From NCBI GenBank assembly GCA_903879705.1, contig CAIRMO010000016.1:1-55334 (forward strand): a DNA stretch of 55,334 nucleotides. The letters are read 5' to 3'. A program made the translations under genes and the position numbers. Below, piece by piece: positions 14,561 through 55,334 of this stretch. A model generated the notes under the pieces. The model saw only the letters and a list, made by a program, of their open reading frames with translations, made no database searches and had not been told where the DNA came from. This stretch comes from an uncultured Candidatus Competibacteraceae bacterium. Its GTDB lineage: Bacteria > Pseudomonadota > Gammaproteobacteria > Competibacterales > Competibacteraceae. The first letter of the stretch is position 1, and each line of letters starts with the position of its first letter.

Positions 14561-15286
14561 CTAGTGGATCGGCCCATTGAACTGAGTAAGGCGCATCACA
14601 TCCAATACCGTAATATGCCTGCCTTTCACACTAATCAGCCCGGATTCACTCAGGTCGTGCAGCACCCGTGATAGCGTCTCTGGTGTCAGATTCAGTCGCG
14701 AAGCGATAATATGCTTGCTGGCAGGCAATTCAATGTCCATTGGACCCTTGATTGGCGCTCCCGCCAGTTGCAGCAGAAAGCCAATGACCCGCTCGGTGGA
14801 GGAGTACAGGGAGTAATTCTCTACATCCTGAACCAGGCCATGTAAATGCATACTCAATCCTGCCAGCATCCGGCGAGCGAAGGTGGTGTCGTGGTCAATC
14901 GCCGCAAAGATGCCCTGCTTGGCGATAGACAGCAGGCGAGAGTCTTCCAGCGCTTGAGCAAATACCAGGCTAGGCCTTTCCAGGAACATGATCGCTTCAC
15001 CAAAGCTTTCCCACGGTCCAGCGATGGACACGACTTTTTCATTCCCCTGCGGCGAAGAAACCGCCAGTTTGATCTGGCCGCACACGACGACATAGAAACC
15101 GTTTAGTAATGCACCTTTTTGAAACAGGATTCGCCCTTTACTCAGTCCGATTTCGCATGTTCCTACCGCCAAGTGGTTAATTTCGCTCTCACCCAACCGC
15201 TGAAACAGCGGCAGATTAGCAAGTGCCCTGCCAATATCAATTTGTTTGCCCACGCCCGGTCTGCTCCTAACGCATTCAGTTGGCAA
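14561..15286 (-). CDS. dnr: Crp/Fnr-family regulator, Dnr/NnrR-like
   Basis: 241 aa. The cyclic-nucleotide-binding-like sensor fold (about 20-140) includes ILFQKGALLNGFYVVVCGQIKL; a dimerisation helix and a C-terminal winged helix follow. The recognition helix carries the E-x2-S-R pattern (PETLSRVL), the Fnr/Dnr signature for TTGAT-N4-ATCAA sites. The four cysteines of oxygen-sensing Fnr are absent (one Cys near the N-terminus), so an iron-sulfur cluster is unlikely; NO sensing through heme, as in Pseudomonas Dnr, is inferred. It is divergent from nirS with a perfect box between them and probably activates nir, nos and nor. Confidence 0.85.
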   Translation of the reverse strand: MPTECVRSRPGVGKQIDIGRALANLPLFQRLGESEINHLAVGTCEIGLSKGRILFQKGALLNGFYVVVCGQIKLAVSSPQGNEKVVSIAGPWESFGEAIMFLERPSLVFAQALEDSRLLSIAKQGIFAAIDHDTTFARRMLAGLSMHLHGLVQDVENYSLYSSTERVIGFLLQLAGAPIKGPMDIELPASKHIIASRLNLTPETLSRVLHDLSESGLISVKGRHITVLDVMRLTQFNGPIH

Positions 15287-33981: not shown

Positions 33982-36900
33982 CTACACAGGTGGAACGCCG
34001 GATGATGGCGCTAAAGCGGGCAACATCTGAACAATTTTGACGGTCTCCAAACTGATCCGGATTACCTGGCCGATCAGCTTAATGATGGCTTGCGGATATT
34101 CAGAGTTATTGGGATCATTGACAATACCACTCCGGGCATCGGTTTTAAGCTGGTATTGATCGATCACCCATTCGAGAGCTGACCGGTTGCCGAGCCGATA
34201 GTCAAAGACTTCTGAAGGAACACCGTTCAACGTCAGCCAGTTATTGTAAATAATTGCCGTTCTTTCCTTAGTCAGCCGCATTTTTTTGACTTCCCAGTTA
34301 TGCGGCTGGTCAGGAGCATAAATTCTTGTCAGCGGGAATTCCGGTTGCTGTTCGTAGTGAATATGGAGATTGGCCAGTTGCTTTCCGGCTTGGCTATACG
34401 ACCAGAAACCCTGGGCATAAGGAATACGGGGAAGTTCACATTTCAGATTAATCGCGTATTTTCGGCGATATTCTTCGTGGTGCAGCAGGCCATAAACGTA
34501 ATAGAAAATATCCCATTTATTGATGCTGACATCCTGATAATGCTGGCGGAAAGCGTCCCTTGCCCAATCGGTGAGATTTTCGTGGCGATTTTGACCGTCC
34601 TCGGTGTAAATATAGAAAGGGAAGCATTGAGAATGACCGTTTAGATGTAAGTCTGGCAAGAAAGAAGTCATCAAGCACTGAAAAGGTCTATTTTCACCAA
34701 CTGCGCTTACACAAATAACTTTGTTCTCTTTTTCCGATAAACCATTTGGAAAAATAGAAGGAAAAACATAAACTCTTTCATTCATCATCCGGTCAAAATA
34801 CAAATTTGATTTTACAAACGGCCTGTACAAAGAAATCCGGATATTCTTCTGGTTAAATTCAGCTTTTCTCCCGCGCGACAAAAAATTTTTTAGACTTTCA
34901 CCCCAACTAATTTTGGTGTCATCGTAATTAACAAAATTATCAATATCAGGTTTTTCGATTAAGTTATTCCATTTCAAGATATGATCATTATAGACCTCTA
35001 TCGTTTTGCAGATATTTCTGGCGAGTTCACTGGCGCTGAAATTATAAGTCCAAGTATCCCGGTTAGTTTTTACCCCGTTGCTGAAAGTTTTGAAGATGAC
35101 GCCTTCCGCTTCCTGAACGCTGGCTTTTTGTTCCTTATTGCCGAGCGAAATGAAACTTTCAAACTCATTTTGTAATCCTTCAGTCAGCCAAATATGGTTC
35201 TTATTAGTGGCGATTTCATGCCATTCAATGGTTAAGTAATTATTGTGCTTTTCCAAAAAGTTATATTTCTGTTCCTTCCGCAAAGATTCATCGACACGGG
35301 CATAATAAAGACAAGTCGATTCCGCAAGTTGCTTTTTAACTAGAAAAGTGATGCACACACCCACTTGAATCCCGAATACATTATGCGTTGTGCCGGATAG
35401 TTTTGGATTCTTGCGGACATTACCGCCCAAATCAAGCAGGTAAAGGCTGGAAAAATCTTTGGCTAATTGCTGACGCATCCCATCAAACGCAATACCGTCC
35501 AGAAAACCATTGTTGGTGACAAACGCAATAATGCCTTGCGGTTGATTTTTCAACCGCTCGGTCGCCCAAGCAAAGGCTTTGACATACGGATCGCTCAGGG
35601 CGTTTTTGTTGGTTGCTTTAGAATTGGCTGCATAGTGTTCCGCCACCCATCGATCCACCACCCGGTATTTGCGATTCTTGTTATTGTCATTTTCATTAAC
35701 CTGCCCGGCGTTATAGGGCGGATTGCCAATAATCACAAAAATCGGCGCGGCTTTCTGGCGATTGACCCGCTCAGTATTCTCCGGCGTCAGAAAGCCAAAC
35801 GCATGTTGCCGATCCTCGGCCAGTTCAAAGGTATCGACCAGGCAAATCCCGCCAAACGGCTGATAATGGTCAGTCAGTTCAAAAAAAGCGTGTTCGATAT
35901 TCATACTGGCGATGTAATACGGCAACAACATGATTTCATTGCAATGCAATTCACTCGCATATTTCCGCTGAATGGCTTCCGGCGTCAACTCCCGCAGAAT
36001 CCGAACCATAAAATTACCCGTTCCCACAAACGGGTCGAGAATTTGCACCTTTTCCGCTGATAGCGAGCGGCCAAACTCCCGCTGGAGCAGCGCATCGACG
36101 GAGCGCACCATAAAATCGACCAGAGGCTGCGGCGTATAAACAATTCCGTGCGTATCCGCTGTTTTAACCGCGAATCCCTGAAAAAATTGCTCATAAACCG
36201 TATTTAGAAAACTCTGTTTCTCCGCATAGTTGTCAATCGATGCTGCCGTTTTTTCAATCGTGTGGTAAAAATAATCCAGCCGTTTTAAAAACTCTTCGCG
36301 TGAAAACGAGCGGGAAGTCAGCGCCGTAATCACCTGCTCAATTTCATGGGCAATCACGTTCCGGTTGATAAAATCGGCATGATTAAAAACCGTCCGAAAA
36401 ATCCGCTCTGTCAATAAATGCTGAATCAGCATTTCCTCAAGCGCAGCTTCCGATAACTGGGGATTAATCGTGTCTTGGCATACCTGCAAAAATGCCGCAA
36501 ACGCCTCCGTAAACTTCGGGTTCCTGCGCCGTTCTTCAGCAATGATTTTCAACAGCGCCGTCGCCAACTCCTGAACCCGCTCCTTAAAACCGGCAATCGC
36601 CGCCTGCCATTGATCATAGGCCGGTGGCTGATAGCCAAAGAACAGTTGCAGCCCGTCAATCAATAACTCCGGCGTCTGTTCATCGATCCGCGCATCAAAC
36701 ACCGCTTGGCCGTTCTGCCACAATACCAGCCGGTCAGGCGTTTGGAACAAAATGTTGTCCTTGGGATAACCTTCAGCAAATTTCCGGGTGATTTCCTTAT
36801 TCAAATCATCCTGCCGATCCTTAGCCTCCCAAATGCCCAGCCGCAACTCGAAGCCATCCAGAATCGCCCCATCCACCCGAATCGGTCGCCGTCCCTCGCG

Positions 36901-37137
36901 CTGAATGGCGTACTGCTCCACCAGTTTCCAGCCGGGAATCTGATTTGCACAAACGCGCAACAATGCCGCAAACGCCGGAGCGACTGCGCCTTCATGGTGG
37001 GCCTGCGCTTGCCGCAAGGTAGCCAGTTCCCGAAAAAAGCCGCGAATGGTTTTGTGATTCGATTTGAGTCGAAGGGGCGAGATTTCCAGGTTCATCCGAT
37101 TTATCCAGCAGTCTGGTGATTTTTTGAAGGGGTCCAT
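33982..37137 (-). CDS. Single-chain restriction-modification enzyme (nuclease + N6-adenine methyltransferase)
   Basis: 1051 aa (or 1037 from the second Met at 37095). An N-terminal PD-(D/E)xK nuclease is suggested by RVDGAILDG with D89 and WEAKD with E104/K106. A helical connector follows. The gamma-class amino-methyltransferase has the SAM motif ILDPFVGTGNF (about 368) and the catalytic NPPY (about 468). The AT-rich C-terminal third (about 600-900) is the likely target-recognition part. No helicase motifs are present, so it differs from the ~1600-aa type ISP enzymes and resembles type IIG. No separate specificity or restriction gene is adjacent. Recent acquisition is likely from base composition. 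Confidence 0.82.
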   Translation of the reverse strand: MDPFKKSPDCWINRMNLEISPLRLKSNHKTIRGFFRELATLRQAQAHHEGAVAPAFAALLRVCANQIPGWKLVEQYAIQREGRRPIRVDGAILDGFELRLGIWEAKDRQDDLNKEITRKFAEGYPKDNILFQTPDRLVLWQNGQAVFDARIDEQTPELLIDGLQLFFGYQPPAYDQWQAAIAGFKERVQELATALLKIIAEERRRNPKFTEAFAAFLQVCQDTINPQLSEAALEEMLIQHLLTERIFRTVFNHADFINRNVIAHEIEQVITALTSRSFSREEFLKRLDYFYHTIEKTAASIDNYAEKQSFLNTVYEQFFQGFAVKTADTHGIVYTPQPLVDFMVRSVDALLQREFGRSLSAEKVQILDPFVGTGNFMVRILRELTPEAIQRKYASELHCNEIMLLPYYIASMNIEHAFFELTDHYQPFGGICLVDTFELAEDRQHAFGFLTPENTERVNRQKAAPIFVIIGNPPYNAGQVNENDNNKNRKYRVVDRWVAEHYAANSKATNKNALSDPYVKAFAWATERLKNQPQGIIAFVTNNGFLDGIAFDGMRQQLAKDFSSLYLLDLGGNVRKNPKLSGTTHNVFGIQVGVCITFLVKKQLAESTCLYYARVDESLRKEQKYNFLEKHNNYLTIEWHEIATNKNHIWLTEGLQNEFESFISLGNKEQKASVQEAEGVIFKTFSNGVKTNRDTWTYNFSASELARNICKTIEVYNDHILKWNNLIEKPDIDNFVNYDDTKISWGESLKNFLSRGRKAEFNQKNIRISLYRPFVKSNLYFDRMMNERVYVFPSIFPNGLSEKENKVICVSAVGENRPFQCLMTSFLPDLHLNGHSQCFPFYIYTEDGQNRHENLTDWARDAFRQHYQDVSINKWDIFYYVYGLLHHEEYRRKYAINLKCELPRIPYAQGFWSYSQAGKQLANLHIHYEQQPEFPLTRIYAPDQPHNWEVKKMRLTKERTAIIYNNWLTLNGVPSEVFDYRLGNRSALEWVIDQYQLKTDARSGIVNDPNNSEYPQAIIKLIGQVIRISLETVKIVQMLPALAPSSGVPPV

Positions 37138-46637: not shown

Positions 46638-47729
46638 TCATGCCGGTTTCAACCGCATCGTGACCCGGTTGTGGTCGCCAATGCGTTCGTAGGCGATATC
46701 CTGAGCATAGTTGTCGATGATGGTCAGACCCAGCCTATCCGGCGTAGGCGCGTTTTCGAGGGGATGCCCCGGTTCGCCGGCGCTGTCCACGCGCAATTCT
46801 ACCGTCCGCCGCTTCTCCGAAAACGCCACGACAAAATCGATGTCCACCGGCCCAGGCCGGGCGACGTGAATCGCCAGCAGCTCTTCGGCCAGCAATTGCA
46901 CGGTCCGAGCGATTTTCACGATCAAGGCGTGCTTTTCACAGAACCGCTCGATCTGGCCGAAGAGTTCATACAGGTCGAAATCAGCGCTGGCGACATGATA
47001 GCCCAGGCTGCGAACCTTGCCGATAAAGTCCCGGGTCCGTTCGCGGCGCGGCGCATCAAACAGTTCGGCGGGTGGCCCCTCCTCATAGATCACCCCCTGA
47101 TCCATGTAAAACACCCGCGTCGAAACATCCCGTGCGAAATCCATCTCATGCGTCACGATGGCCATGGTCATGCCCTGTCTGGCCAGTCGGCGGATCACTG
47201 CCAGAACCTCGCTGACCATCGTCGGATCCAGCGCAGAAGTGGGTTCATCGAACAGGATGATCTCCGGTTCCATCGACAGACAGCGCGCAATCGCCACCCG
47301 CTGTTTCTGTCCGCCGGAGAGTTCGTCCGGGAAGTGATCGGCCTTCTCCGCCAGTCCCACCATTTTCAGCAACTCAGTTCCAGCCGCCTCCGCCTCCGCC
47401 TGGCGCTTGCCCCGCAATCGAACCGGACCGATGGTCAGGTTTTCGAGAACGGTCAGATGGGCGAACAGATTGAAGGACTGGAACACCATGCCCATCCGCT
47501 GCCGCAGCTTCGGTACGTTGGTGCCGGGGGCCAGAATGTCCTGGCCGTCGATCTCAATCCGCCCGCCCGACGGGGTGTCCAGCAGGTTCAGGCAACGCAG
47601 AAAGGTACTCTTCCCGGTGCCGGAGGGGCCAATGATTGAAATGACTTCCCCCTGGGAGATCTCCGCGTTGATGTCCTTCAGAACCTCTACCGCGCCGTAA
47701 CGCTTGGATAAATGTTCGACCTTGATCAT
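46638..47729 (-). CDS. Polar amino-acid-type ABC ATPase fused to a HATPase-like domain
   Basis: 363 aa. Residues 1-240 are a GlnQ/HisP-type ATPase: Walker [10 protein letters not shown] (34-42), Q-loop MVFQSFNLF, signature LSGGQKQR (138-145), Walker [15 protein letters not shown]-loop THEMDFA. Residues about 250-363 resemble a GHKL/anti-sigma ATPase: N-box-like [11 protein letters not shown] (279-289), VDSAGEP (314-320) and RLGLTIIDN (332-340), ending with NRVTMRLK. The usual N-box Asn is lost, so ATP binding by this tail is doubtful. It overlaps the permease gene by 4 bases. The tail may let the transporter sense or signal; unproven. Confidence 0.8.
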
Positions 47730-49408
47730 GCCGTTGCCCTCGCCGTGCGCCGCGCCTTCGGATTAGTCCGTCGATCGAGATCATCCAGCGCCAGACCGAG
47801 GACCCAGATGATGAGAAAGTAAATCGTCGCCACCATCAGCAACGGGAAAAACGCCTCGAAAGTGCGGCTGCGAATGATGTCGCCAGCCTTGGTCAGATCC
47901 TGGACGCCGATATAGCCGACGATGGAGGTCATCTTGACCAGCGAGATAAATTCCCCCCGATAGACCGGCAGGATGCGCCGGGTTGCCTGGGGCAGGACGA
48001 TGTTCAGAAAAGTCTGCGCCGGGGTAAAGCCTATGGCGATCCCGGCCTCGGTCTGGCCCCGGTCGATGCTCTCAATGCCGGTGCGAAACATCTCGGACAC
48101 ATAGGCCGAGAAGTTGATGCCAAAGGCGATGATCGCCACGATCACCGGATCGATGTTGAACGAGGCGAAGGCGACATAAAAAATCAGCATGAGCAGCAGC
48201 AGCACGGGCAAGCCTCGCACCAGGAAGATGTAGCCGGACCCCAGACGCTGCCACAGAGACTGGCTGGACATGCGCAGATAGCAGATCAGTCCGCCTAGCA
48301 GGGTGCCGAATACCGTGGAAGTCACCGAGATCAGCACCGTCACCCAGAGGCCGTTGAGAATCAGTCGCCAGCGCTGTTCCAGGAAAAAATTGGCTTGGAA
48401 ACTCGCGCGCAGATCGTCGAAAAAGCTGGATGCCGGGATGTTCTCCGGCGACGCCAGCAGGGCTTGCCCTGAAGTCGCAAGCGCTGATAAAGCCAGGTTG
48501 CGTTTCTGGACCAGCGCTGCCGAGCGGTCATAGTCATAAGGTTTGGAGAAATCGACCTTGGCCAGGCGTTCTTCGGTGATGGACAGCGTGGCGACGATCA
48601 TGTCGATTTTGCCCACCGCCAGCGCAGCAATGAGCGCATCGAACTCCATCAGCACGATCTCCAGCCGGAACCCGGCCTGCGCCGCGAAACGCTGCATCAA
48701 CTCCACCTCAAAGCCCTGATACTGCCCATCAATCAGGGCGATGTACGGCAGTCCGGTAAAAATGGACGTGCCGATCCGGAGGGTCTCGCCGGTTTTCAGG
48801 GTAGGAATAACCGGCATGACGGCGATTTGGGGATCATCGCCGAACCAGCGGTTGCGCATCTCCGCCAGGGTTCCATCGGCTTGAATCGTCTCGAGAACAC
48901 GGTCGAAACGCTGCCGACGCTCATCGCCTTTGCGAAACGCTGCGCCAAGCGGGGTGTTATAGAAATCGTCAGCCAGAATCGCCAGGTCCGGATTTTCCTT
49001 GGCGATGGCGCGGATGACCAGGTCATTGTCGATGGCGACGTCCACCTTGCCGGTTTTCAGGGCCAGCACAAAATCGGCCTTGCTGTTAAAGCGGGTGATT
49101 TGGGCCAGGGGGAAGGTGTGGGTGACGTAAAGGTCCGGGGCGGCCCCGGTCATCACCGCAATCCGGCCCCGGGCCAGGTCGTCCAGGGAGCGCCAGCCAT
49201 TCGCCGCATTGCCAGTTCCAGGTTGCCCTGGTTTCATCGGGACGTCTGATTGTGCAGGGGTCTGGGTGTTGCCTTGCGCATCCCCGGTCGGGGACACGCG
49301 GCTCTGCTCGCAGGACCAGAGCGTCAGGCAGGCGGCAATGAGCAACCAGACGGCTAGAACGAACGATTTTTGTCGGGCGTAACTTTGATGGATAGCGGGT
49401 ATGGTCAT
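47726..49408 (-). CDS. Fused solute-binding (permuted lobes) and permease protein of ABC transporter
   Basis: 560 aa from the ATG at 49408 (a TTG at 49420 is also open). Residue numbers below count from that TTG. Lipoprotein-like signal (LTLWSC), Pro/Gly-rich linker, then a C-terminal-half SBP_bac_3 segment ([18 protein letters not shown] at 75 to [12 protein letters not shown] at 183-194). Next comes an N-terminal-half segment ([19 protein letters not shown] at 214 to [18 protein letters not shown] at 288-305). The GlnP-like permease (about 350-545) carries [20 protein letters not shown]. The order second lobe, first lobe, channel is a circular permutation, or the remains of two receptors. 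It presumably imports polar amino acids. No clear RBS. Confidence 0.78.
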
Positions 49409-49410
49409 CG

Positions 49411-49470
49411 TTGGGATCAATGTCGATTCGTTGGGATCAATGTCGATTTGTTGGGATCAATGTCGATTAT
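49411..49470 (+). repeat. Three tandem 20-bp repeats at the transporter start
   Basis: The unit TTGGGATCAATGTCGATT plus two bases occurs at 49411-49430, 49431-49450 and 49451-49470, the first two differing at one base and the third at two. They occupy exactly the leader of the minus-strand transporter gene, where an RBS would be expected. Confidence 0.9.
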
Positions 49471-49564: not shown

Positions 49565-52500
49565 TCAACTAATGCTAATCACCAGCCTGGCCAAGCGCTG
49601 CAACCGGGTTTCCAGCACTTCGAGCAGATTCAACGCCAGTTGCGGATGCTGCTGAATCGTCGCCCGGAGTACCGCCCCCGGGAATTGCAGAACGACCACG
49701 TCGCCCAACAGCGCCTCAGCGGTCAAAATAGCGCACTTGCCGGGGAACAGACTTTCTTCGCCGACAAAGTCCTTTGCGCTCAGGATGCCCAAGGTGCCGG
49801 TCCAGCCACTGGTCGAGGTGCTGGAAATTTCCAGATGGCCGTCCATGACCAGATAAAGCGCATCAGTCGGGTCACCTTCCCAGAGCAGCGGCCGCTCGTT
49901 GCGAAATGCGGTAAGCGTAGCCTGACCCGCCAGGGTCGCTCGTTGTTCGACCGACAACTGGGCAAACAGCGGCGTTTGCGCCATGAAGGCGATGCGTTCG
50001 GCCAGCGCCTGGCGGATCATCGGCAACAAATTGGGCCGGATCAGTGTCGGCCACCTAAAGCCCAGTCGCTCCAGCAGAAACTCGGTGCGATCCGCCAGTG
50101 AAGTCACCAGGGTTTGCTGTTCCAGCTCGCCGCCCAGCCAGCCCATGTGGGTGAGGATGTTTTCAATGTGGTGGCTGAAGCCCCATTGTTCGAGGTGGTT
50201 GAGCAGGGTATCGACAAAATCCGCAAAGGGGACGGTGCGGACGGCCAGACCCAAGGCGGGATCGGTCAGCACTTGGGACAGCTTCAACCGTCGCGGATTG
50301 GCCAGATGGTACGTTTCATTACGCAATGGCGCGGTGTGCATCAGCCGGAGAATGGCCTGCGCGAGGCTATCGACATAGGTGAAATCGATGTCGTCTTTCA
50401 TCGCCGGGGTGACGCCGAGATTGACGAAGGATTGCACCTGACTGAAGAAGGCGTTGTCTTCGATGTTCTCCTGATAGCGGCCAGTATCCTGGCTGAACAC
50501 GATGTTGCCGACCCGATAAATGCTGGCGTTCAGACCCTGCGCCCGGCGGTCGATCAGCAGTTTCTCCGCCGCCAGCTTGGTGGTGAGGTAATGATTGCTG
50601 CTGACCTGACCTTCATCAGCGGCATCTTCGGTGAACACCACATACTCCCGGTCGGGGAACACGCCGGCTGCCACCGAGAGGGTAGAAATGTGGTGCAGGT
50701 CCTTGGGAATCCCGGTCTGGGCGAAGTCGATCAGATTCACGACCGATTGCACATTGGCCTGATAAAACTCTTGATAGTGGCCATAGTGGCGGACGTTGGC
50801 GGCGGAATTAAGAATCCCGTCGATCTGCTGCGCCCAGTGCTGATAGTCAGCGGTAGTCAGACCGAACTGCGGCTGGCTCAGGTCGCCGCACAAGACCGTG
50901 ATCCGATCTTCAATTCCGAACGCATCCCACGTTGTATCACCGAAGTAATAGGCGAATTTACTCCGCAACCGCGCCGTGGCATCGGCTCGGTCGGTTCCCC
51001 GTATGATGACCACCAACGGGGTATCTTCCGGCTGGCGCAGCAGGTCATAAAGCAGGTACGCGCCCAGGAAGCCGGTTGCACCCGTAAGCAACAGGTGCGA
51101 GTAGCGGCGCTGGGCAGTGAAATCCAGGTCCTGATAACGCGCCCAAGTGGCTCGATACTGCTGTTGTGCGGTCGCCAGTTGCGCCTGATATTCGGGATGC
51201 GCCGCCAGCGGATCGGCCCAAGCCTCCGGGTTCTCCTTCAGATCGTTCAGGAACAGGTTCAGGTAATCCTGCCGAGGTTTGATCTTCGGGGCGAGTTCAG
51301 CAATGGTCTGCCATTGATAGAGATCATTGATGGTCACCACAAAGTGCTTTTGCAGGCGGGCGATGACGGTAATCGCCTGTAGCGAGTTGCCACCGAGGGC
51401 AAAGAAGTTGTCGTGAATGCCGACGTTCTTGATCCTCAGCACGGTAGCCCAAACTGTCGCCAGGGTCTGTTCCAGTTCATTGCGCGGGGCGGTATAGCCG
51501 CGCACGATCTCCTCGGTCGCCGTGCCGGGTTTAGGCAAGGCCCGCGTGTCGATCTTGCCATTGACGGTCAGGGGCAGGTGGTCCAACTGGATGAAATGGG
51601 CGGGAATCAGGTAATCCGGCAGGGTGTTGTGCAGGGTTTGGCGCAGCGTCGGGAAGTCCAGTTCCACGGTCGGCGGTTCGGCGACCAGATAACCGGCCAG
51701 ATATTTATTGCCGCTGTCGTCATCCAGCGCCACCACCACCGTTTCCCGCACTGCGGGCAGACTGAGGATCGCCTGTTCAACTTCGCCCAGTTCTACCCGA
51801 AAGCCGCGAATCTTGACCTGATGATCTTGCCGGGCGGAGAACTCCAGCGTGCCATCGGGACGCCAGCGCACGATGTCGCCGGTCCGGTAGACACGAGACA
51901 CCCCCCTCACCCCCGGCCCCTTTCCCTCCGGGCGATGGGCGTCAAAGGGATTGGCGATGAACTTTTCAGCGGTCAATTCCGGCCGGTTCCAATACCCCCG
52001 CGCCACTTGTGCGCCGCCCAGCCACAGCTCCCCCGGAATGCCAATCGGTTGCAACTGGCCGCGAGCATTGACCACATACGCCTGGGTGTTCGCTACCGGT
52101 CGGCCAATCGGGATGTTGACATCATCAGCCCGCTCAAGGGTGAAGCGGGTCGCCGTCACCGTGCATTCAGTCGGGCCATAGGCATTGATGAGCGTGTAAG
52201 GCTGGGGCGTGGCGGTTTTCAGTCGCTCGCCACCCACGAGCAATAGCCGCAACGACTGATTCCGGGTGAGTTGCATGAACTGCTCACCGAACTGGGTCGG
52301 GAAGTCGGCGATGGTGATGCCCTGATCTTCAAAATAGGCGCTGAGGGTGTCCGGGGCCAAGCGCAACTCATCAGGAACGAGATGGACCACAGCGCCGACC
52401 AACAACGGCGGAAACAGGCAACTGACCGCGGAATCGAAGCTGAAACTGTAATGATTGGCGACCGCGTCCTCCGCAGTCGTCGCATTGGCGGCGTTTTCCC

Positions 52501-55334
52501 CGGCGCAGAGATTGACCAGATTGCGCTGTTCAATCAGCACGCCCTTGGGCTGGCCGGTAGAGCCGGAAGTGTAGATCACATAGGCCAGATGCTCCGGGCG
52601 GGCGAGTGGTTCCCAGGGTGTCGCGGGGCCGGCATAAAGTGCGGGGTCGTGGACCTCCAGCCACGCGCCAGCAAAGACGCCGACCTTCTCGCGCAATGCG
52701 GCCTCGGACAACAACAGCGTCGCGCCACTGTCGGCCAGCATGAAGTCAATGCGGGTCTGTGGATACTCAGGATCGACTGGTAAATACGCGCCGCCAGCCT
52801 TCATGATCGCCAGCGCGGCGATCAGCATTTCAGCGGAACGATGCAGCAGGATGGGCACGATGGCGTCGGGCTGAACGCCTCGATCCCGCAGCGCCCGCGC
52901 CAACGCATTGGTTTTAGCGTCGAGTTGCTGATAGGTATAACGCTCGTCCCGATAAACCAGCGCCAGCCGGTCCGGGGTTTTTGCAGCCTGCTCGGCGAAC
53001 AGTTCCGGGAAGGTGCGATCCGTGGGAACCGGCAGCGCGGTGGCATTAAAATCGACCAGAAGGTGCTGCCGTTCCTCGGCGGACATTAGCTCGATATTGC
53101 CCAGCCGAATCTCTGGATCAGCCGCGATCTGCTGCAACAGCCGAACGAAATGGCCGGCCATGCGTTGAATGGTGGCCGCATCAAACAGGTGGGTCGCGTA
53201 ATTGAAATAACCGTCGATCCGGTCGGTTTGTACGCCAATATCCAGACTCAAATCAAAGTGGGAAGACGTTGAGGCGGTCGGATAGTGGCGGATGGTGAGC
53301 TGAGCGGCTTGCTGGATCGATTCCGCCGCCAGCAGGCCAAACGAGGCGGTGAACAGTGGATTGCGACTGGGATCGCGGGGGAGATGCAGATTTTCGACGA
53401 TCCGCTCAAACGGATAATCCTGATGCTCCAGCGCATCCAGCACCGCCTGGCGGACTTCATGCAGAAAGCGCGAAAAGGGTTTGTCGGCCTGGGGCAAGCC
53501 CCGAATCGGCAGCGTGGTGACAAACATTCCGATCAGGTTTTCCGCATCGGGATGCGTCCGCCCGGACGCGACCGTGCCGATAATCAGGTCTTCCTGCCCG
53601 GCATATTTGCCCAATAAAACCTGATAAGCGGCCAGCATCGTCATAAACAGGGTGCTGCCAGCGCGTTGCGCGATCTCATTCAATTGCGCCATGAGCGCCT
53701 CATCCAGCGCGAACTCGACGCTCGCTCCGGCAAACTGCTGGTGCGCCGGGCGGGGTCGGTCGGTTGGCAATTGCAGCACCGGCAACTCGCCCGCCAGCGT
53801 CGTCAGCCAGTACGCTTCATGGGTCTGCATCGCCGTGGAATCCAGCAACTCATTCTGCCAGGCGGCGAAATCCCGATACTGAATCGGCATGGGTGGCAGT
53901 ACGCCGCCTTCGTACAGCGTGAATAACTCGTCGAACAGAATCAGCGACGAAGCGCCATCGCTGATGCTGTGGTGCATGTCGATGATCAGCAGATGACGCT
54001 CCGGCGCGAGTTTGAACAGCCCCATGCGGAACAGCGGCGCTTCGCTGAGATCAAACGGCTGGCAAAACTCATTGAGCGCTTCGGCCAAATCGGCTTCCGG
54101 GACTTCCTTGAACAGCTTCTTATAGCGCAGGTGCGGCTGAATCTGCTGGACAATATCGCCATCGATCAGGGTGAACCGGGTGCGCAGGATTTCATGGCGG
54201 TCGACCAGTCGATCCAGCGTATCCGCCAGGCGGGCGCTATCCAGCGAGCCTTCCAGCAGCAAGGTCTGGGGAATGTTGTAAGTCGCGCCGATCCCCGGCA
54301 GGCTTTGCAGCACATACATCCGTTTCTGCACCGCCGAGGTCAGGTAATGGTCGCTCTCCGGCACCGGCGCAATCGGCGTATAGCGCTGCCGCCGGGTGCG
54401 CTGCGTGATGTCCGCCGCCAGGTCTTGCAAAATCGGCCGATTGAACAGGTCCGCCAAGGCCAGTTTGACCCCAAAGGCTTTTTCCAGCCGCGCCGCCAGC
54501 GCCATCACCTTGAGCGAGTTGCCGCCCAGGGCGAAGAAGTCATCATCCAGACTGAGACTGCGTTCGGGGTGCAGAATCTCCCGCCAAATCCCGGCGATCT
54601 GTTCTTCGATCTCATTGCGCGGGGCGAGATAGGGCCGTTGGGCACCCTGATGCGGGTCGGGTAAAGCCTTGCGATCCACTTTGCCGTGGGCATTGATCGG
54701 CAAGGCGGGCAGCGGAATCAGGAACGCCGGGATCATGTAACCAGGCAAGTCACGGCCCAGAAACGCCTTGATTTCAGCAGGCTCCACCGGCGGGGCGCTG
54801 ACGTAGTAGCCGCACAGATAATGGCCGCCACTGGGGTCTTCCCGGGCGATGACGATGGCGTCGTGGACGGCGGGATGCTGGATCAGGGCGTGGTCGATTT
54901 CGCCCAGTTCCACCCGGAAGCCGCGAATCTTGATCTGAAAATCGCGCCGGCCAATGAATTCCAGATTGCCATCCGGCAGCCAGCGGACGATATCGCCGGT
55001 CCGATAGACACGAGCGTTGTGGTCGCCGTCGGTAAAGGGATTGGCAATGAACTTTTCTGCGGTCAATTCAGGCCGATTCCAATAGCCCCGCGCCACCTGC
55101 GCCCCGCCCAGCCACAGTTCGCCGGGGACACCCATCGGCTGCAATTGCCCCTGCGGATTGACCACATACGCTTGGGTATTTGCCAGCGGTCGGCCAATCG
55201 GGATGCTGGCGTAGTCGGCTTGGTTAATCGTGAAGCGGGTGGCCGTGACCGTGCATTCGGTCGGGCCATATTCATTGACCACGGTGTAGGACTGGGGCGT
55301 GACCCCTTTCAACGTGTCGCCGCCCACGATCAGC
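49565..55334 (-). CDS. NRPS (partial): A-PCP-C-A-PCP-thioester reductase-cNMP-binding domain
   Basis: C-terminal ~1920 residues; the gene runs off the window at its 5' side. Order (numbered from 55327): adenylation tail (1-225), carrier with Ser 271 in LGGNS, condensation (about 325-745, catalytic HHSISDG at 452-458), adenylation (about 770-1265, YTSGSTGQPKG at 920-930), carrier with Ser 1315, and a reductase (about 1410-1760) with NAD(P)H loop TGATGFLG at 1415-1422 and Tyr1580-x3-Lys1584. A Crp-like cyclic-nucleotide-binding domain closes it (about 1785-1915, VGEESLFPG at 1855). The reductase should release the peptide as aldehyde or alcohol. The final domain lacks the phosphate-binding Arg of CAP (KCAIL where PRAAT is expected), so it may bind another ligand. 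Product unknown. Confidence 0.92.
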   Translation of the reverse strand, partial: LIVGGDTLKGVTPQSYTVVNEYGPTECTVTATRFTINQADYASIPIGRPLANTQAYVVNPQGQLQPMGVPGELWLGGAQVARGYWNRPELTAEKFIANPFTDGDHNARVYRTGDIVRWLPDGNLEFIGRRDFQIKIRGFRVELGEIDHALIQHPAVHDAIVIAREDPSGGHYLCGYYVSAPPVEPAEIKAFLGRDLPGYMIPAFLIPLPALPINAHGKVDRKALPDPHQGAQRPYLAPRNEIEEQIAGIWREILHPERSLSLDDDFFALGGNSLKVMALAARLEKAFGVKLALADLFNRPILQDLAADITQRTRRQRYTPIAPVPESDHYLTSAVQKRMYVLQSLPGIGATYNIPQTLLLEGSLDSARLADTLDRLVDRHEILRTRFTLIDGDIVQQIQPHLRYKKLFKEVPEADLAEALNEFCQPFDLSEAPLFRMGLFKLAPERHLLIIDMHHSISDGASSLILFDELFTLYEGGVLPPMPIQYRDFAAWQNELLDSTAMQTHEAYWLTTLAGELPVLQLPTDRPRPAHQQFAGASVEFALDEALMAQLNEIAQRAGSTLFMTMLAAYQVLLGKYAGQEDLIIGTVASGRTHPDAENLIGMFVTTLPIRGLPQADKPFSRFLHEVRQAVLDALEHQDYPFERIVENLHLPRDPSRNPLFTASFGLLAAESIQQAAQLTIRHYPTASTSSHFDLSLDIGVQTDRIDGYFNYATHLFDAATIQRMAGHFVRLLQQIAADPEIRLGNIELMSAEERQHLLVDFNATALPVPTDRTFPELFAEQAAKTPDRLALVYRDERYTYQQLDAKTNALARALRDRGVQPDAIVPILLHRSAEMLIAALAIMKAGGAYLPVDPEYPQTRIDFMLADSGATLLLSEAALREKVGVFAGAWLEVHDPALYAGPATPWEPLARPEHLAYVIYTSGSTGQPKGVLIEQRNLVNLCAGENAANATTAEDAVANHYSFSFDSAVSCLFPPLLVGAVVHLVPDELRLAPDTLSAYFEDQGITIADFPTQFGEQFMQLTRNQSLRLLLVGGERLKTATPQPYTLINAYGPTECTVTATRFTLERADDVNIPIGRPVANTQAYVVNARGQLQPIGIPGELWLGGAQVARGYWNRPELTAEKFIANPFDAHRPEGKGPGVRGVSRVYRTGDIVRWRPDGTLEFSARQDHQVKIRGFRVELGEVEQAILSLPAVRETVVVALDDDSGNKYLAGYLVAEPPTVELDFPTLRQTLHNTLPDYLIPAHFIQLDHLPLTVNGKIDTRALPKPGTATEEIVRGYTAPRNELEQTLATVWATVLRIKNVGIHDNFFALGGNSLQAITVIARLQKHFVVTINDLYQWQTIAELAPKIKPRQDYLNLFLNDLKENPEAWADPLAAHPEYQAQLATAQQQYRATWARYQDLDFTAQRRYSHLLLTGATGFLGAYLLYDLLRQPEDTPLVVIIRGTDRADATARLRSKFAYYFGDTTWDAFGIEDRITVLCGDLSQPQFGLTTADYQHWAQQIDGILNSAANVRHYGHYQEFYQANVQSVVNLIDFAQTGIPKDLHHISTLSVAAGVFPDREYVVFTEDAADEGQVSSNHYLTTKLAAEKLLIDRRAQGLNASIYRVGNIVFSQDTGRYQENIEDNAFFSQVQSFVNLGVTPAMKDDIDFTYVDSLAQAILRLMHTAPLRNETYHLANPRRLKLSQVLTDPALGLAVRTVPFADFVDTLLNHLEQWGFSHHIENILTHMGWLGGELEQQTLVTSLADRTEFLLERLGFRWPTLIRPNLLPMIRQALAERIAFMAQTPLFAQLSVEQRATLAGQATLTAFRNERPLLWEGDPTDALYLVMDGHLEISSTSTSGWTGTLGILSAKDFVGEESLFPGKCAILTAEALLGDVVVLQFPGAVLRATIQQHPQLALNLLEVLETRLQRLARLVISIS
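51899..51937 (-). repeat. Repeat element captured in frame in an NRPS adenylation domain
   Basis: The DNA matches the GAGAGGG-TTGGGGTGAGG repeat (minus strand GGAGGGAAAGGGGCCGGGGG) and encodes HRPEGKGPGVRGV (1131-1143). The otherwise near-identical first adenylation domain has only GDHNA here; the net gain is nine residues. Confidence 0.6.

Follow-up and report, generated by a model that had tools for sequence, protein, structure and literature searches.

The window, by which we mean the whole stretch of DNA analysed (55,334 bases), is the entire contig C16 of a Candidatus Competibacteraceae genome (G000; 3.62 Mb in 148 contigs, completeness given as 100%). Its NRPS gene is a minus-strand open reading frame at 49565-55333 (1922 codons), which runs open into the contig end. 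The Pfam domains follow the order partial A-T-C-A-T, then NAD_binding_4, then cNMP_binding; the frame holds one Condensation, two AMP-binding, and two PP-binding stretches, NAD_binding_4 at residues 1416-1661, and cNMP_binding at residues 1810-1896. The features of the gene and of the two genes downstream are as follows (evidence in brackets).

54659-55333, minus strand: adenylation (A) domain, of which the contig end leaves the C-terminal part (AMP-binding_C at 145-218; overlap with contig C44)
54413-54604, minus strand: first peptidyl carrier (T) domain, DDFFALGGNSL (Pfam PP-binding at 244-307; motif position)
53057-54355, minus strand: condensation (C) domain, HHSISDG (Pfam PF00668 at 327-759, E = 4.2e-119)
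51536-52999, minus strand: A domain of the last module (Pfam AMP-binding at 779-1115; several NCBIfam adenylation models extend to 1266)
51284-51481 (approximate ends), minus strand: second T domain, DNFFALGGNSL (Pfam PP-binding; motif at 1308-1318)
50015-51148, minus strand: predicted thioester reductase (R) (Pfam NAD_binding_4, E = 4.3e-50; motif alignment)
49568-50008, minus strand: cyclic-nucleotide-binding (CNB) tail, with N-terminal helices, beta-roll, and last helix (Pfam cNMP_binding at 49646-49906; phmmer; AlphaFold2; fold search)
49730-49762, minus strand: phosphate-binding-cassette region of the tail, GEESLFPGKCA, residues 1858-1868 (alignment of eight tails and 27 other CNB domains; codons)
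47726-49420, minus strand: adjacent downstream gene, encoding SBP_bac_3 joined to an ABC permease (Pfam)
46638-47729, minus strand: ABC ATPase fused to HATPase_c_2, overlapping the SBP_bac_3-permease gene (Pfam)

As expected of a terminal-reductase NRPS, the C, A, and T domains are followed by NAD_binding_4, and the R domain has the cofactor motif TGxTGxLG together with YxxxK. The motifs TG[AS]TG[FY]LG, STxS, and YxxxK, which we take to be residues with a known role in such reductases, are present in all seven aligned members. The NCBIfam thioester reductase model (TIGR01746) gives 202.8 bits, slightly below its cut-off of 213.35; despite this score we call the domain a predicted thioester reductase, because the Pfam domain and the motifs are present. 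The gene would encode the end of a multimodular NRPS whose peptide is released by NAD(P)H reduction, as an aldehyde or an alcohol. The best NCBIfam model is that of the aureusimine synthetase AusA (NF047350), with 1190.6 bits on the partial protein. AusA-type NRPSs with a terminal reductase make pyrazinones or peptide aldehydes, and to our knowledge they carry no CNB tail. They share the A-T-C-A-T-R order with the window; unlike AusA, the window protein scores far below the equivalog cut-off of 2500 bits and comes from a longer, probably trimodular synthetase.

The window carries the end of the gene; what precedes it is found on two other contigs of this genome, C33 and C44. C33 encodes a C domain and the beginning of an A domain by Pfam, and C44 is known from its open frame (1578 residues) rather than from a Pfam scan. 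The contig-end overlaps C33-C44 and C44-C16 are exactly 128 bp each and fall within A-domain sequence. Because the end of C33 shares this 128-bp overlap with C16 as well, the order C33-C44-C16 is not proven for this genome and is taken from the sibling genome G001, where the gene is intact. That gene encodes 4264 residues counted from the first start codon; its first 3779 residues contain four Condensation, three AMP-binding, and three PP-binding stretches by Pfam, and the window gene probably belongs to a longer, trimodular NRPS. The assembly breaks at the 128-bp stretch (window 55207-55334), which is the shared end of C33, C44, and C16; these identical ends within A domains suggest that modules have recently recombined or undergone gene conversion.

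The tail matches cNMP_binding (PF00027) with E = 6.4e-13 and 48.9 bits (gathering cut-off 27.5), and it is encoded in one frame with R, with zero stops between them. A phmmer search of the PDB with the last 159 residues retrieves 32 sequences at E <= 0.01; 2pqq ranks first (2.9e-12), and Mtb CRP, GlxR, and PKA regulatory subunits are also among them. AlphaFold2, run on an alignment of seven sequences, gave five models, the best with pLDDT 77.7 and pTM 0.73 (the remaining four, pLDDT 46-63). With this model, the top Foldseek match is Mtb CRP (E = 6.1e-11), and VIA-align gives Z scores of 15.8-18.7 across the 50 rows listed, all of them CNB-domain or Crp/Fnr-family entries by title, with domains of the CRP, PKA, and PKG type. 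HMM and structure prediction thus agree that the tail adopts a CNB fold, and the first-pass annotation, which had described an NRPS ending in a reductase with a Crp-type sensor fold covalently attached behind it, is borne out on both counts. The combined model of R plus tail (527 residues) is poor (pLDDT 51.5), too poor to place the two domains relative to each other.

The protein ends at the last CNB helix, with the stop codon directly after it. No helix-turn-helix follows the CNB domain and Pfam finds no such family in the frame, which sets the protein apart from the Crp/Fnr transcription regulators. The tail has the CNB fold of the sensor half of Crp/Fnr regulators (Mtb CRP, GlxR, and S. 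coelicolor 2pqq) but differs from them in lacking the helix-turn-helix, in being covalently attached to an NRPS, and in its altered cassette. The R matches of tail-less relatives stop at about position 370-381 of the 527-residue R-plus-tail stretch, which is about where the CNB domain begins in tailed proteins. Among the tail-less relatives whose R match reaches at least position 369, six proteins (L036, L038, L039, L041, L042, and L053) end 4-17 residues past the match; the exception, L040, runs 97 residues beyond it.

The same fusion is found in eight genomes from two phyla, which answers the earlier suggestion to look for other proteins with a reductase and a CNB domain: four from Competibacteraceae and four from the Geobacter order, with Candidatus Competibacteraceae, Geobacter, Desulfuromonadales, and Trichlorobacter among the carriers (the family and order labels of relatives rest on record titles and kinship codes). 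Of 59 genomes (the window's own and 58 relatives), four match R plus tail over nearly the entire query: the window genome, G001 (85% identity), G028 (86%), and G020 (41%). Family f1 has 37 members in this search, and these are four of them; two genomes of the same genus (G002 and G003) have no R-plus-tail match. A scan of 84,980 species genomes with two short R peptide patterns, which fusions on divergent reductases would escape, gave 70 pattern stretches and nine confirmed loci. Six loci have R plus tail (L030-L035), three of them being the contigs of G001, G028, and G020; one is cut by the contig end (L037), and in L036 and L038 the match is confined to R.

In the Geobacter order, nine of 141 genomes match at 1e-20, four with R plus tail and five with R only; one of the tailed matches (G406) is split over two contig pieces, with the R-CNB junction on one of them. 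A class sample (369 genomes, 1e-20) has 20 matches, of which the window genome and G001 have the tail and 18 have R only. Two phylum samples at 1e-60 have three matches among 395 genomes (G403 with the tail, two with R only) and one among 398 genomes (the window's own). At most four candidates per genome were scored in the class, 10 in the order, and three in the phylum samples. Among plasmids, 120 records match R and none covers 80% or more of R plus tail, and two viral-contig scans with CNB alignments (40 and 44 pattern stretches) yielded no confirmed relative; a mobile or phage origin was looked for in both sets, and neither proves its absence. The fusion is real, conserved, and rare in the genomes searched, with firm evidence on structure and conservation.

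Set against 27 further CNB domains from the genomes that carry them, the eight tails form one clade (support 99/96), and the tail clade needs a single change in 100% of 200 bootstrap trees. The 27 are those with loci out of 47 non-tail matches, and mostly the best-scoring ones. Two subclades are seen: clade I (the window genome, G001, and G028) and clade II (G020 and G403-G406). On this tree the tail likely has one origin. In the best tree of R domains, the tailed reductases do not form a single clade, and two changes are needed; a tail-less R from Flavobacteriaceae (L036) groups with the Competibacter group (82/83), and tail-less L053 also falls inside the smallest group containing all seven tailed rows. 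A single clade of tailed R domains is not rejected, however (p-AU = 0.274), so that three histories remain: loss of the tail in some lines after one fusion, one fusion with tail-less rows wrongly placed in the tree, or a tail that has moved. Simple NG86 estimates of omega for the three clade I pairs are 0.107, 0.092, and 0.103 in R and 0.139, 0.077, and 0.123 in the CNB domain, and for G403/G406 0.198 and 0.150, respectively. These ratios indicate that the tail is under purifying selection similar to that on R. The simplest view is that a single ancestral fusion would have put the CNB domain directly behind the reductase and that selection kept it there.

Clade II members resemble AusA-type NRPSs in being bimodular (C-A-T-C-A-T-R by Pfam), with one carrier missing in the Trichlorobacter NRPS (L035, 1656-9341). 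Pfam detects a single carrier domain in this protein, and its first A domain looks degenerate (ISEPSGRPAAV vs. TSGSTGxPKGV in the others); for both reasons its first module may be dead.

A change seen in all the tails concerns the phosphate-binding cassette, a name that we take, together with its usual residues, from general knowledge of the family. Positions come from a MAFFT alignment of the eight tails with the 27 other CNB domains and are numbered after the Gly. At +1, Glu is found in 24 of the 27 other CNB domains, and the tails have Lys (five of eight) or Glu (three of eight). Position +2 is Glu or Asp in all eight tails and in none of the other 27, which have Met (14), Ala (five), Ile (four), Arg (two), Leu (one), or Gln (one). 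At +10, Arg is present in 20 of the 27 (counted by eye from the alignment) and in none of the tails. The window cassette keeps Glu1859 and has the acidic Glu1860 at +2 and Cys1867 (TGC) at +9, where G001 and G028 have Arg (CGC). The cassette Arg, reported earlier as missing, is indeed absent from the window, and in strict register it is absent from all eight tails, with two having it one position earlier. The PGK[RC] of clade I and the PGPR of Mtb CRP are alignable given a one-residue gap, so the Arg of G001 and G028 may reach the phosphate. Clade II has the cassette G-K-[DE]-x-L-L-H in five of five members. Judged from the alignment, the cassette is remodelled in all eight tails. Class III cyclase domains occur in all eight fusion genomes, and cyclic nucleotides are therefore probably made in them. 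A separate Crp/Fnr-type regulator in the window (14561-15286; CNB plus helix-turn-helix) likewise has a cassette without the Arg.

SBP_bac_3 genes of the amino-acid type lie within about 5 kb downstream of the NRPS in four of the seven genomes with enough sequence (G405 is left out, as its contig ends too soon): the window and three genomes of the Geobacter order (L033, L087, and L034). The context is of the ABC type in the window, includes an SDF symporter in L033 and L087 (in the latter identified by resemblance), and is a fused amino-acid permease in L034. The NRPS contigs of G001, G028, and G020 have none. With 3-13 SBP_bac_3 matches per fusion genome, this is by estimate more than we would expect by chance, but L033 and L087 are close relatives. 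The SBP_bac_3-permease gene is a possible functional partner of the NRPS. The window's ABC system (46638-49420) has two unusual fusions, SBP_bac_3 with permease and ATPase with HATPase_c_2. An MFS transporter lies directly upstream of the NRPS in L032, L034, and L037 by Pfam and in L035 by resemblance; L033 has no MFS frame there. A phosphopantetheinyl transferase gene is found one or two genes downstream in all four Geobacter-order loci (L033, L034, L035, and L087), which would fit an active NRPS, and the G020 locus has an aconitase at that position. Between the NRPS and the next gene of the window are three tandem copies of a 20-bp unit (49408-49467; TCGTTGGGATCAATGTCGAT), and a 19-base version of it is found nowhere else in the window with up to two mismatches. 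The window also encodes a Type ISP restriction-modification enzyme (33982-37137), and in G001 an MmeI-type enzyme directly follows the NRPS.

We favour, tentatively and at slightly less than an even chance, the reading that the tail is an allosteric regulator of the terminal module; ligand binding, domain contact, and the direction of the effect are inferred. A small intracellular ligand would occupy the cassette, the occupied cassette would shift the C-terminal helices, and via the short linker this shift would make the R domain more or less accessible or active, coupling release to cell state. In its favour count the fusion kept in eight genomes, the single clade of tails, the purifying selection on the tail, the retained R motifs, the acid at +2, the SBP_bac_3 genes downstream in four genomes, and the two precedents described below. 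Against the allosteric reading stand the poor R-plus-tail model, the best R tree, in which tailed reductases are no clade, and the three genomes with no SBP_bac_3 gene downstream (G001, G028, and G020). With an acid gained and the Arg register lost in the cassette, plain cAMP or cGMP is probably not what most members bind, if they bind a ligand, and a nucleoside or an amino-acid-like metabolite is the more likely candidate. In the window's clade cAMP or cGMP is still a possible ligand, because of the cyclases in all eight genomes and the off-register Arg of the two siblings. The fuller proposal, that a CNB domain switches reductive release, has abandoned cyclic nucleotides for another metabolite, and makes peptide output respond to metabolism at the enzyme level, is doubtful.

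In the main rival reading, the tail would serve in dimerisation or assembly: the fold would be retained around an idle pocket, and the last helix would pair two NRPS chains in the manner of Crp dimers. Much of the sequence evidence is also compatible with oligomerisation: AlphaFold2 predicts a long Leu-rich last helix at tail positions 134-158, five Leu residues are invariant in seven members (L506, L508, L512, L519, and L522 of the 527-residue stretch), and the Arg is absent from its consensus register. The cassette does not seem adrift, however, and neither the acid at +2 in every tail nor the motif shared by clade II would be needed in an idle pocket; we regard this explanation as rather unlikely. 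It is more improbable that the tail is an ordinary cAMP or cGMP sensor in the Competibacter clade, with the Cys of the window due to an error in the sequence or to one base having changed recently. The CGC codons of G001 and G028 opposite the TGC of the window, the retained Glu1859, and the cyclases would all agree with such a sensor, but the Arg of the siblings is one position off register unless a gap is allowed, and the acid at +2 would presumably sit near the phosphate. If the tail served in docking or localisation and held the NRPS to a partner, for instance an adjacent transporter, this would account for the MFS genes that immediately precede the NRPS in several clade II loci and for the SBP_bac_3 systems downstream in four of seven testable genomes. 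The transporters come from different families, however, and the contigs of G001, G028, and G020 have no SBP_bac_3 gene, which leaves docking a slim prospect.

The first-pass annotation had also asked whether a stop between the domains had been missed, and none is present in any of the eight genomes. An assembly artefact or missed stop was rejected on the ground that the same R-CNB junction recurs in these genomes. Misassembly, a missed stop, or a decaying fusion might be considered given that the records of the seven other carriers (L030-L035 and L037) are titled MAGs and the window genome is a draft of 148 contigs. Such an origin is largely refuted, and scarcely credible, with the junction shared by eight assemblies, most of them from different projects by title, and a tail omega of about 0.1.

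Two systems described elsewhere offer partial parallels. In the mycobacterial acetyltransferase Pat (a type III GNAT), cAMP on an attached CNB domain relieves autoinhibition (PMC8556138). As in the role proposed for the window, the CNB domain of Pat is attached to a catalytic domain and gates its activity; unlike in the window, it is N-terminal, belongs to another enzyme, and has reported cAMP binding. In the trypanosomatid PKA regulatory subunit, polar residues stand where the cassette Arg would be, a Glu of the cassette substitutes for it, and the subunit binds inosine, guanosine, and adenosine with nanomolar affinity (PMC10959531). This subunit and the window tails have both lost the cassette Arg and gained an acid. 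The parallel can be no more than a loose analogy and is not the same change, because the acid of the tails is one position away from the trypanosome Glu, which lies one position further; in addition, the PKA subunit is a kinase regulator with two CNB domains.

The claim that no characterised NRPS has such a tail holds in the open-access papers searched, where none is described, although one may be described elsewhere; one paper enumerates PF00027 among regulator domains and another concerns CNB proteins in geosmin clusters. The protein is a new arrangement of known parts. Gene expression and substrate supply are usually regarded as what determines NRPS output. A conserved sensor on the release domain, if this reading is true, would be a direct control point on the enzyme itself, and the altered cassette makes the search for its ligand concrete. 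It could be a bacterial example in which a CNB domain has switched its ligand class, and it could serve as a natural part for ligand-dependent NRPS release.
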